A stretch of DNA of 12,459 bases from a candidate division KSB1 bacterium (GTDB lineage: Bacteria; Zhuqueibacterota; JdFR-76; DREG01): positions 1 through 12,459 of the forward strand of contig JADFJB010000131.1 of the NCBI GenBank assembly GCA_022566355.1, given 5' to 3'. Below the pieces are notes generated by a model. The model was not told the origin of the DNA. It did no database searches and saw only the letters and a list, made by a program, of their open reading frames with translations. A program made the position numbers and the translations under genes. Below, one piece after another: positions 5,704-12,459 of this stretch; the stretch's first letter is position 1; each line of letters begins with the position of its first letter.

Positions 5704-5759
5704 TATTTTAATTAATTCATCTAATCCACTCATACTCAATAAAATTAACCGGAGGTTCT

Positions 5760-6164
5760 ATGAATAAATCAATAAATAAAATGGGAATATCATTTTTCGT
5801 AGTGTTATTCTTCATTAATTTGTTAATGATCAATTTTGGTTGTTCCAAAAGTGAAGAGCAATCAGTTGATGATGCTACTCAACTAAAAGCAAATTTGGTT
5901 TATTATTCAATGCCTGGCTGACCATTCTGCGCTAAGATACAAACCATCGTGAATGGTTTAGAAGAAACAAATAAAGGAGTATTGGCTTGTGAAATCCGAA
6001 ATGCTATGGATGAGAAGGGTAAAGTAGAAATTTCCGAATTAGGTTTTAAAACCCACGGAATGGTTTTTTACGATCCTGATGGTAACATCCTCAAAAAGAT
6101 AGATGGACACAAGATGACCGAAGAAGAAATTGATTCAGCAGTGAATGAAATTTTAGGAATTTAA
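5760..6164 (+). CDS. Selenocysteine-containing thioredoxin-like lipoprotein (UxxC; TGA at 5919-5921 read as Sec54)
   Basis: From the ATG at 5760, preceded by GGAGG (5751-5755), the frame stays open except for one TGA at codon 54 and ends at TAA 6162-6164, giving 134 residues. The TGA sits in YYSMPG-U-PFCAK, exactly where the first Cys of a thioredoxin CxxC motif belongs, and the resolving Cys57 is intact. Upstream is a lipoprotein-type signal (hydrophobic 10-26, then NFGC, Cys28). Downstream sequence is collinear with a thioredoxin-like fold: helix after the motif, then FKTHGMVFYDPDGNILKKIDGH. The usual cis-Pro position appears to be HG. A hairpin begins at the TGA. UGA is an ordinary stop in other genes here, so reassignment is unlikely. 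I infer a membrane-anchored extracytoplasmic redox protein. The alternative is a nonsense-mutated pseudogene; GTG at 5949 could start a 71-residue remnant lacking the active site. Confidence 0.86.
5919..5958 (+). promoter_or_regulatory. Candidate bacterial SECIS hairpin at the in-frame TGA
   Basis: GACCATTC (5920-5927) can pair with GAATGGTT (5951-5958): seven Watson-Crick pairs plus one G-U, closing a 39-nucleotide hairpin whose base includes the last two bases of the UGA. Above it GCG (5929-5931) can pair with CGT (5948-5950) if T5928 bulges, leaving a 16-base loop; an alternative inner stem pairs GAT (5936-5938) with ATC (5946-5948). Size and placement resemble the E. coli fdhF SECIS, which also starts at its UGA. 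The usual early loop G is not evident, so the apical structure is uncertain. Confidence 0.6.
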
Positions 6165-6186: not shown

Positions 6187-6220
6187 AGCCCGGTTCAAAA
6201 ATTAAGAGCCGGGCTTTTTT
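6187..6220 (+). terminator. Rho-independent terminator after the selenoprotein gene
   Basis: AGCCCGGTTC (6187-6196) pairs with GAGCCGGGCT (6206-6215), ten pairs with one T-G wobble, around a nine-base AT loop, followed directly by a T run (6215-6220). It lies 22 bases past the TAA. It should end the transcript carrying the selenoprotein and separate it from the cyclophilin gene. Confidence 0.93.
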
Positions 6221-10379: not shown

Positions 10380-10522
10380 TTAATCTTTTACGAGGCCATC
10401 TTCTATTTCAGTGTGCCTTGGAATAGGTTGGCTTTTTCCCGATTGAGGATTTTTATACCAATCATGATTGGCGCCATGACGTATAAAAACACTACCATTT
10501 GACTTAATTGTTTTCTTTTCAA
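10380..10522 (-). pseudogene. hicA: Broken hicA toxin gene, copy 1
   Basis: HicA toxins are small mRNA interferases with a double-stranded-RNA-binding-like fold and a catalytic His. From a TTG at 10522, overlapping the hicB stop as TTGA, the frame begins KRKQL and then shifts. In the other frame, from 10502, it encodes SNGSVFIRHGANHDWYKNP and then QSGKSQPIPRHTEIEDGLVKD, a clear HicA core with the RHG...H motif. Compared with copy 2, 13 bases are missing between two AAAACAATT repeats, which causes the frameshift. The C-terminus also ends early at 10380-10382. The toxin is almost certainly not made. Confidence 0.82.
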
Positions 10523-10710
10523 ATCGCTATTTCCAATAGCTGAAAAGGTTCTGCATCTGGCACCAAACCTTTTTGAATATCATGATAAATCTCTATTAGA
10601 TTGTCTTTTAATTCACCGATTGTTTTTCCCTGGCTTTCATAATCGGGGTGTTGTTGTATATGCCCGATAAACCATTCTTTTTCTTTTTTATAGACAATAT
10701 TTAATTTCAA
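10519..10710 (-). CDS. hicB: HicB-family antitoxin, copy 1
   Basis: A 63-residue protein of the HicB RNase-H-like antitoxin fold: MKLNIVYKKEKEWFIGHI, then PDYESQGKTIGELKDNLIEIY. It contains only this domain; the C-terminal DNA-binding domain of longer HicB proteins is absent, as in many short forms. GGAGA sits upstream at the usual distance, but the start codon is TTG where copy 2 has ATG, so expression may be weaker. It differs from copy 2 at three residues (17, 32, 61). The partner toxin gene overlapping its stop is broken, so this is now an orphan antitoxin that might still neutralise a related HicA elsewhere. Confidence 0.85.
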   Translation of the reverse strand: MKLNIVYKKEKEWFIGHIQQHPDYESQGKTIGELKDNLIEIYHDIQKGLVPDAEPFQLLEIAI

Positions 10711-10784
10711 GAAAATCTCCTTTTAATTTTTTAAGTCGAACGTGGATGTATGTATTATTCATGTTATAAATATAAATAGATTAT

Positions 10785-10897
10785 CCAGATGGTGCAAGTC
10801 CCTTATTAACGAGTTGAGACGCGTCCTCCGCTCCTCGGCGGAAGTCCATTAGTAAGCTGCAAGAGCCTGTCTCGGGCTTGAACCGGGGGTGTCCCGT
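10785..10897 (+). ncRNA. GC-rich structured-RNA fragment, possibly part of a group II intron
   Basis: This stretch is much richer in GC than its surroundings and has no coding frame. It can form a series of hairpins: TCCGC/GCGGA (10827-10842), AGCCTG/CGGGCT (10864-10878) and CGGG/CCCG (10884-10896). Phrases such as GGTGCAAGTCCC followed by repeated short stems remind me of domain I of bacterial group II introns, but no reverse transcriptase, domain V or 3' end is present, so it would be a remnant. The strand is assumed from that resemblance. It runs straight into the second thrC tail. Confidence 0.35.
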
Positions 10898-11052
10898 TGG
10901 GTCTAACCAGGGTTTGTTCATCGGTCCTGAAGGTGGAACAACCCTGGTCGTCTACCAAAAGCTAAAGGAAAGATCGCTGGATCGCGGAGAATGAGAAAGT
11001 GGTATTGTTTAACATCGGTAGTGGTTACAAATATTATTCTTTGTGGAAGTGA
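10897..11052 (+). pseudogene. thrC: Diverged fragment of the thrC 3' end, copy 2
   Basis: Collinear with the last 50 or so codons of thrC (native about 10192-10348). Translated in register it reads VGSNQGLFIGPEGGTTL and VVYQKLKE, with many third-position changes, so it descends from a functional but diverged gene. A one-base insertion in GAAAGATCGCTGG breaks the frame and creates a TGA; the tail SGYKYYSLWK and its TGA (11050-11052) can still be read after the shift. No N-terminal part or start is present. Confidence 0.92.
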
Positions 11053-11089
11053 GGCTGATTGGTAATTCTTCTTTCTTGGATGAAGAGGC

Positions 11090-11545
11090 TTAATATTCTT
11101 TTGCAATACGCATTGCCTCAGAATATAGAGTACCACTTATTCTAAAACCAACTTCCTGAAAATTATCGAGAATAGGTTTGATTTCAGATATTATTCCTCG
11201 ATCTTTTGCTCGTAATATTAAACCAATTGTTCCAATTACTTTAAGACTTAACTCTTTTGCTATTCGTCTAGCTTTTTTATCATCAAGAAGAATATGAATG
11301 TTACTAATTTCAAGCGCTAAAGCTATTGCTTCTGATTCTCCATCGCCAATTTGAGTACATAAGGAAGAAACAACCGCAATATTTTTTACTGTTTTTACAG
11401 AAATTTTCTTTATCTTATTTCCGATTTCCTTTTGTACAGCTTCAGGAATTAAAATAATCTCAACTGATTTTAACAGTATTTCAAGATGTCCAATTCTTTC
11501 AAGAGCAATTATGCAGGAACTATTGCATACAATATTTTTAATCAT
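11090..11545 (-). CDS. DUF3368 PIN-domain nuclease, probable toxin
   Basis: A 151-residue PIN-like protein, likely the toxin of a UPF0175/DUF3368 pair; PIN toxins are metal-dependent RNases. The order fits the family: NIVCNSSCIIALERIGHLEIL at the N-terminus, IPEAVQKEI, GDGESEAIALALE (67-79) with acidic residues Glu70/Glu72, then HILLDDKKARRIAKEL with Asp88/Asp89, and KVIGTIGLILRAKDRGII. The first PIN Asp is Asn8 here, a variation I believe is common in this subfamily but which makes activity uncertain. Its ATG overlaps the end of the upstream antitoxin gene by eight bases. The C-terminal region (130-151) is intact. Confidence 0.85.
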   Translation of the reverse strand: MIKNIVCNSSCIIALERIGHLEILLKSVEIILIPEAVQKEIGNKIKKISVKTVKNIAVVSSLCTQIGDGESEAIALALEISNIHILLDDKKARRIAKELSLKVIGTIGLILRAKDRGIISEIKPILDNFQEVGFRISGTLYSEAMRIAKEY

Positions 11546-11759
11546 ATGATTGTTCTTGCTTTAGATCTTCAGCAGGATGATCAAATATTGGGACATTGTA
11601 TTTATCCAATAACTCCATAAAAGCACGCTTAGAATAACCTGAATACTTTGCAGCTTGTCCTAGAGATAATTTTCCAGTTTCAAAGAGTTTTATCATAAGT
11701 AATAATTTTGCCTCTTCCTGCTGAACTTCAGAAGGAAGTTGTATTTGCAATACATACAT
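11538..11759 (-). CDS. UPF0175-family antitoxin
   Basis: A 73-residue protein with a short N-terminal strand, LQIQLPSEV, and a helix-turn-helix-like segment, FETGKLSLGQAAKYSGYSKRAFMELLDKYNVPIF (about 26-59), typical of UPF0175, the usual partner of DUF3368 nucleases. It should bind the toxin and repress its own promoter. The ATG at 11759 has AGG seven bases upstream; a second ATG four bases downstream (11755) is out of frame. The acidic, Gln-rich tail overlaps the toxin gene by eight bases. Confidence 0.85.
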   Translation of the reverse strand: MYVLQIQLPSEVQQEEAKLLLMIKLFETGKLSLGQAAKYSGYSKRAFMELLDKYNVPIFDHPAEDLKQEQSYD

Positions 11760-11954
11760 AAAAATACCTATCTTTTATTTAACTTATTAGAATACTATAA
11801 ATTCACTAAAATTTAGTGTTTCTTTCCCTCAATAATCAAGTAATAATTTTTTGATTCTTCATCAATTTATATATTTTTTGTTCTGTTTTCTCCATCCAGC
11901 TAACGACTCGAGTTAACCCGATATTTCAGCATAAGATGAACTTGATTACTTGTC
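11760..11954. other. AT-rich promoter region of the UPF0175/DUF3368 operon, rest without gene
   Basis: No gene is seen. The part nearest 11760 must carry the leftward promoter; TATAGT or TATTCT about 30-40 bases before the antitoxin ATG are possible -10 boxes. The remainder, up to the third thrC tail, is featureless apart from a small palindrome ACTCGAGT near 11908-11915. Confidence 0.4.
11804..11818. promoter_or_regulatory. Candidate autoregulatory operator of the UPF0175/DUF3368 operon
   Basis: CACTAAA (11804-11810) and TTTAGTG (11812-11818) form a perfect 7-base inverted repeat around one base, 45 bases before the antitoxin start and just upstream of possible -10 sequences. The antitoxin's DNA-binding-like segment makes self-repression here plausible. 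This is an inference from position and symmetry. Confidence 0.42.
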
Positions 11955-12049
11955 CAAAAGCTGAAAGAAAGCGGCTGGATCGATGAGAATGAGAAAGTTG
12001 TTCTGTTCAACACCGGCAGTGGTTATAAATATTATTCTTTATGAAGTGA
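11955..12049 (+). pseudogene. thrC: Diverged fragment of the thrC 3' end, copy 3
   Basis: About the last 32 codons of thrC: QKLKESGWIDENEKVV, then LFNTGSGYKYYSL, in one frame. Loss of one G turns the native LWK-stop into an immediate TGA (12042-12044); the ancestral stop can be seen at 12047-12049. Copies 2 and 3 share CTGGATCG and GAGAATGAGAAAGT where native thrC differs, so they resemble each other more than native thrC in that segment. Confidence 0.9.
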
Positions 12050-12064
12050 AGCAGTTGTAACATG

Positions 12065-12238
12065 CTACGAAAGTCTTTTTATTATTCTTATAGCGAGGCC
12101 ATCATCTATTTCAGTATGCCTCGGGACAGGTTGGTTTTTCCTGATTGAGGTTTTTTATACCAAATCAGAATTGGCACCGTGGCGCATAAAAACACTACCA
12201 TTTGACTTAATTGTTTTAATCAATTGTTTTCTTTTCAA
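12065..12238 (-). pseudogene. hicA: Broken hicA toxin gene, copy 2
   Basis: From a TTG at 12238, overlapping the hicB stop as TTGA, the frame reads KRKQLIKTIKSNGSVFMRHG and then ANSD, a normal HicA start. It then meets an extra T (GATTTGG where copy 1 has GATTGG), giving a stop at 12155-12157. A later one-base loss (AAAAACC against AAAAAGCC) restores the original frame, which then reads QPVPRHTEIDDGLAIRIIKRLS up to a TAG at 12065-12067. The N-terminus missing from copy 1 is intact here, but the catalytic-core region is out of frame, so it is also inactive, by different lesions. Confidence 0.82.
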
Positions 12239-12426
12239 ATCGCTACTTCCAATAGCTGAAAAGGTTCGGCATCCGGCACCAAACCTTTTTGAATATCATG
12301 ATAAATCTCTATTAGATTGTCTTTTAATTCATCGATTGTTTTTCCCTGGCTTTCATAATCGGGGTGTTGTTGGATATACCCGATAAACCATTCTTTTTCT
12401 TTTTTATAGACAATATTTAATTTCAT
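12235..12426 (-). CDS. hicB: HicB-family antitoxin, copy 2
   Basis: Sixty-three residues, differing from copy 1 only at residues 17 (Tyr for His), 32 (Asp for Gly) and 61 (Val for Ile). It starts with ATG at 12426, with GGAGA upstream at a normal distance, so it should be the better expressed copy. It comes first in a hicB-hicA order with a four-base overlap, as usual for translationally coupled pairs, but its hicA is frameshifted. Confidence 0.86.
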   Translation of the reverse strand: MKLNIVYKKEKEWFIGYIQQHPDYESQGKTIDELKDNLIEIYHDIQKGLVPDAEPFQLLEVAI

Positions 12427-12459
12427 GAAATTCTCCTTTTAATTTTTTAAGTCGAACGT

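Follow-up and report, generated by a model that had tools for sequence, protein, structure and literature searches.

A predicted envelope-anchored UxxC selenoprotein with a thioredoxin fold, unannotated in a candidate division KSB1 genome

Thioredoxin-fold selenoproteins with a UxxC motif form a known class, and UxxC is the usual redox layout. The described systems closest to the protein presented here are the Sec-containing thioredoxin (Trx, UxxC; PMC13188914, Table 1), with which it shares the thioredoxin fold and a UxxC motif that opens the first helix; the Sec-containing glutaredoxin (PF00462, UxxC), with which it has in common a short beta-alpha-beta...beta-beta-alpha core; and SaoT (NF040730), likewise a small thioredoxin-like UxxC selenoprotein. 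The cis-Pro of the fold is usually more conserved than the CxxC motif; it is believed to contribute to the site where the substrate binds and to keep metals from binding (PMC2757866). SelD, DUF3179 and AhpC/TSA-fold proteins are also known selenoprotein families. In the literature searched, no paper was found that combined Calditrichota or Calditrichaeota with selenoprotein or selenocysteine, and a search with the motif was also empty.

The window, that is, the whole stretch of DNA that was analysed (12,459 nt), is the entire contig C131. The draft genome to which it belongs comprises 213 contigs that add up to 4.62 Mb, and it is 98.5% complete; a binning error was considered for this contig and rejected, its composition being typical of the genome. 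On the plus strand, one frame of 134 codons is interrupted by a lone internal stop, a TGA that takes the place of the first Cys of a thioredoxin-like CxxC motif (...VYYSMPG-U-PFCAKI... in translation). The features of this locus are the following:

5751-5755, plus strand: ribosome binding site GGAGG, seen in the sequence ahead of the ATG
5760-6164, plus strand: coding sequence of the predicted 134-residue selenoprotein, with TAA at 6162-6164 (frame translation and homologues)
5760-5840, plus strand: predicted lipoprotein signal peptide, residues 1-27 (hydrophobic stretch, then a Cys-Ser invariant in five members)
5841-5843, plus strand: Cys28, predicted lipidated Cys (invariant in five)
5886-6161, plus strand: thioredoxin-fold domain, residues 43-134 (AlphaFold pLDDT >90; matches to thioredoxins with Z up to 13.8)
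5919-5921, plus strand: TGA, predicted selenocysteine codon 54 of UxxC (TGA at the same codon in all five genes)
5928-5930, plus strand: Cys57, putative resolving Cys of the UxxC motif (invariant in the five-member alignment)
5941-5959, plus strand: candidate SECIS hairpin AAACCAU-CGUGA-AUGGUUU (codons 62-66 identical in five genes)
6054-6059, plus strand: His99-Gly100, replacing the thioredoxin cis-Pro loop (invariant in five, Pro absent nearby)
6187-6220, plus strand: terminator-like hairpin AGCCCGG...CCGGGCT followed by a T-run (read from the sequence)

The terminator-like hairpin is missing from the hairpin scan because its 15-nt loop exceeds the limit of the scanner. The standard ORF list contains only a 71-residue piece of the gene, from GTG 5949 to 6164, as had been anticipated by an earlier, sequence-only reading of this DNA, which proposed the selenoprotein and noted the ribosome binding site now placed at 5751-5755. 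Elsewhere in the contig, positions 10391-12459 hold a duplicated block with a HicB-like ORF at 10519-10710 and 12235-12426 (246 nt, 96%) and with repeats at 10976-11045 and 11974-12043 that resemble the 3' end of a threonine synthase-like gene; the contig terminates within the second copy of this block. An overlapping pair of small ORFs at 11090-11759, on the minus strand, resembles by eye a PIN-domain toxin and a UPF0175-type antitoxin.

Four homologues with 43-51% identity to the window protein were found. Two of them (G033 and G042) came from searches of the phylum, and a scan of genome contigs with X at the Sec codon returned three loci, i.e., L035 (Calditrichaceae MAG_33), L036, and again the contig of G033, which recurs as Caldithrix sp. 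N075bin58. The organism names point to Calditrichota, and the match with G033 would place the window in this phylum as well; the exception is one record labelled Deltaproteobacteria (L036, WYBG01000500.1) that is probably a mislabelled or contaminated MAG; over the selenoprotein gene this record is approximately 96% identical to Calditrichaceae MAG_33, with which it is also syntenic. All four homologues have TGA at the position of codon 54 in frames that are otherwise intact, therefore the in-frame TGA of the window is not a chance occurrence. The ratio dN/dS is approximately 0.2 on either side of the TGA (for the G033/G042 pair, 0.10/0.55 upstream and 0.12/0.50 downstream), and both flanks are under purifying selection. 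The single TGA at the first-Cys position, the unbroken frame on both sides of it and the conservation of the gene in relatives, where decay would have spoken against the proposal, thus agree with the sequence-only reading. The Cys-54 homologues that it suggested looking for were a different matter: homologues do exist, but every one of them carries Sec. Cys was not found at codon 54 in any of the five family members, the scan of genome contigs with patterns having Cys at the Sec codon gave zero loci, and no homologue was found in plasmid records, phage records or viral contigs. A profile search of 82 genomes of the phylum added a single sequence, a remote CxxC thioredoxin (G051, L142).

The same alignment bears on the possibility that the TGA is an ordinary stop, which would leave a short secreted peptide followed by a separate ORF from GTG 5949. 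TGA is indeed a normal stop in the phylum, as the sequence-only reading had also remarked for this DNA, and the L035 and L036 copies of the gene themselves terminate with it; moreover, an ORF does begin at GTG 5949. Nevertheless, this GTG is codon 64 and falls within the first helix (residues 55-70), and the two halves together build a single thioredoxin domain, to which the upstream one contributes the first strand and the loop of the active site. Given that the TGA is conserved across five genes that hold the frame with no further stop, this explanation is contradicted and its probability is negligible.

The protein encoded by the full frame was characterized by structure prediction. An AlphaFold model built with three sequences showed a pLDDT >90 over most of residues 43-134, and structure comparison retrieved thioredoxins (best Z 13.8, TM-score to target of approximately 0.7). 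Sec54 superposes on the first Cys of thioredoxin, and Cys57 is invariant. The sequence-only reading had seen a fold-consistent sequence after the TGA and a UxxC site, and both are borne out by the model. It had also described a lipoprotein-like N-terminus, and all five members have the hydrophobic stretch with its Cys-Ser; the lipobox is atypical in the window protein (N-F-G-C) and reads L-A-A-C in L035 and L036. From these sequence features, Cys28 is probably lipidated and the protein anchored in the envelope. The position expected for cis-Pro is occupied by His-Gly in 5/5 members. As for the remark that no annotated family was recognised, it stands, since the window protein passes none of the Pfam and NCBIfam cut-offs; PF00085 (thioredoxin) gave no match to it at E 0.1 and matched 1/5 members, at E 0.0033. 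For the members tested, the scores with the curated selenoprotein models were all far from close.

A redox function of the product is fairly probable, the most likely one being that of a Sec oxidoreductase of the thiol/disulfide type, anchored in the envelope. Another explanation, which competes with the redox part of this proposal and leaves the selenoprotein part untouched, is that the protein serves mainly to bind or chaperone metals or metalloids, in which case Sec54, Cys57 and His99 would hold a soft metal because the cis-Pro that normally blocks such binding is missing. The invariant His99-Gly100 in a loop lacking Pro fits this idea, and so does the His-rich cation-efflux (CDF) gene that precedes the selenoprotein gene, on the same strand, in L035 (4909-4968) and L036 (1101-1300). 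However, this neighbour is confined to two closely related loci, and it is absent in the window, G033 and G042, while the UxxC motif itself favours redox activity; a mainly metal-binding role is therefore unlikely. Sec/Cys/His chemistry that goes beyond plain disulfide exchange, for instance the binding or reduction of soft metals or metalloids at the cell surface, is considered a similarly doubtful possibility. A reading of His99 after the Sco copper chaperones was also considered; the spacing in Sco differs from the one present here. With regard to the genomic context, the window gene lies near thyX and a cyclophilin, and G033 and G042 have other neighbours, unlike those of the window or of L035 and L036. 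The position beside thyX that the sequence-only reading had pointed out is thus real in the window and incidental, and a functional link with thyX was rejected given that the neighbours differ among homologues.

Another aspect of the locus is the RNA element that may direct Sec insertion. According to the bSECIS model (PMC13188914), the loop should have 3-9 nt with a G in its first two positions, the spacing from the UGA should be 16-37 nt and the energy -7.5 kcal/mol or lower. In all five genes, a hairpin core (ACCAU-CGUGA-AUGGU) begins approximately 20 nt past the UGA, with the loop CGUGA 26 nt past it, which satisfies the rules of loop size, G position and spacing; in contrast, the hairpin folded in isolation reaches only -4.5 to -5.6 kcal/mol, which is weak, and a hairpin of the stability of that in the window, or better, follows 4.4% of random TGAs. 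The codons of the hairpin (62-66) are the same in the five genes, versus 8/38 of the other codons for invariant residues (hypergeometric P of approximately 0.001). At the base of the stem there is one double change among the five sequences, from A-U to G-C, and covariation across them falls within that of shuffled alignments (103/500). RNAalifold favours a competing helix that shares the 3' arm of the hairpin, and the consensus of the region, at -9.8, contains this other helix. Since the hairpin is weak alone, is matched at 4.4% of random TGAs and competes with a more stable helix, it is a good candidate SECIS, as yet unproven.

The genome itself was searched for the Sec machinery, as the sequence-only reading had suggested, and the outcome was divided. 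The selD gene is present (L031 8163-; G000:C12:35945-36865), and it too contains an in-frame TGA (TCGUAAKISP), accompanied by a strong GGUC hairpin; on the other hand, the search of the draft gave no selA, no full selB and no tRNA-Sec. TGA-interrupted coding frames were sought in 2.0 Mb (44%) of the genome, and this sample revealed six other intact selenoprotein genes, encoding SelD, four DUF3179 proteins and one AhpC/TSA-family protein, so that the genome has at least seven when the window gene is included. The DUF3179 proteins have one in-frame TGA each (L087 14826-, L089 6100-, L123 7294+ and L139 8482-, in strand-oriented positions), and two of the four have lipoprotein-like N-termini; their Sec contexts are AYUPLVD or VWUPLAN, i.e., U followed by PL-V/A, versus the UxxC/T given in a review. 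The AhpC/TSA-family protein (L091 9849+) reads GGWUPYC and has a hairpin with a GGU loop after the UGA.

Among the genomes with a homologue of the window gene, G033 has both SelB and tRNA-Sec, located on a single contig. In G001, of the same family as the genome studied here, the gene order is gat441-ltd589-mem-selA-selB (the first three being working names for the flanking ORFs), and tRNA-Sec is on a different contig. Orthologues of gat441 (64% over 441 residues) and ltd589 (47%) open contig C46 of our genome, 0.6 kb from the contig edge and oriented toward it. From this location at a contig end, we infer an assembly gap, so that selA, selB and tRNA-Sec would lie beyond the assembled contigs. 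Alternatively, the Sec trait could have been recently lost together with selA, selB and selC, and the gene would be an undecayed relic whose product ends at codon 53. The failure to find the three genes in a draft that is 98.5% complete agrees with such a loss, which keeps some probability because the last 0.6 kb before the edge of C46 does not correspond to the expected next gene, mem, which was not found elsewhere in the genome, and because the separate contigs of selA-selB and tRNA-Sec in G001 indicate that one gap may not remove all three. However, a relic is difficult to reconcile with that many intact selenoprotein genes and with the two neighbours at the contig end, and the absence of tRNA-Sec weighs little, since the Rfam search missed it in approximately 5/25 SelB-positive relatives; loss of the trait is accordingly regarded as very improbable. 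In G002, G013, G021 and G026, SelB is present and the Rfam search gave no clear tRNA-Sec, which may reflect MAG gaps or a divergent tRNA-Sec. The absence of selA, selB, selC and selD from a complete genome, named beforehand as evidence against the selenoprotein, is not what was observed, because the genome is a draft, selD is present and at least five further selenoprotein genes are intact.

Taken together, the reading frame, the conserved UGA, the selection on both flanks, the fold and the other selenoproteins of the genome support well that the window gene encodes a true selenoprotein in which UGA codon 54 is read as Sec, a conclusion drawn from sequence that we consider very likely; the core of the sequence-only reading, an unannotated UxxC thioredoxin-like selenoprotein lipoprotein, is upheld. 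In the mechanism proposed, UGA 54 would be decoded by a SelA/SelB/SelD/tRNA-Sec system, steered by the short hairpin located just 3', and the product would be exported, probably lipidated at Cys28 and held in the cell envelope. There, Sec54 could act as the nucleophile and Cys57 as the resolving residue within the thioredoxin-fold domain, to reduce disulfides or related oxidised S/Se groups of an envelope substrate. The inferred parts of this explanation are the lipidation, the SECIS function, the unseen selA, selB and tRNA-Sec, and the redox activity with its direction. Standard gene callers do not see the half of the protein that contains the active site, and annotated genomes therefore lack the family or show it in truncated form. 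In addition, the lineage looks like a substantial, undescribed user of selenium, since this genome has several other selenoproteins.

Compared with the known systems, the window protein differs from the Sec-containing thioredoxin in its lipoprotein signal, in the lack of cis-Pro, in scores below the Pfam cut-offs and in a model without the N-terminal beta-alpha unit. PF00462 (glutaredoxin) is the best Pfam match and the one common to all five members; however, the score of the window protein is below the cut-off (20.7 versus 22.9), the protein is predicted to be exported, and its structural matches are thioredoxins. SaoT is the best NCBIfam match of the G033 member, with 24.1 bits, far under the cut-off of 65, and the window protein gave no match to this model. 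The only Cys relative retrieved by the phylum profile search, the lipoprotein thioredoxin of G051 (L142, E 2.9e-5), which adjoins a cytochrome-c-biogenesis-like membrane gene, also combines a lipoprotein signal with a thioredoxin domain, but its similarity is remote and it has CxxC and a normal cis-Pro. The gene of the window thus apparently adds to the known class of thioredoxin-fold UxxC selenoproteins a new family that is Sec-only, predicted to be envelope-anchored, and devoid of cis-Pro.
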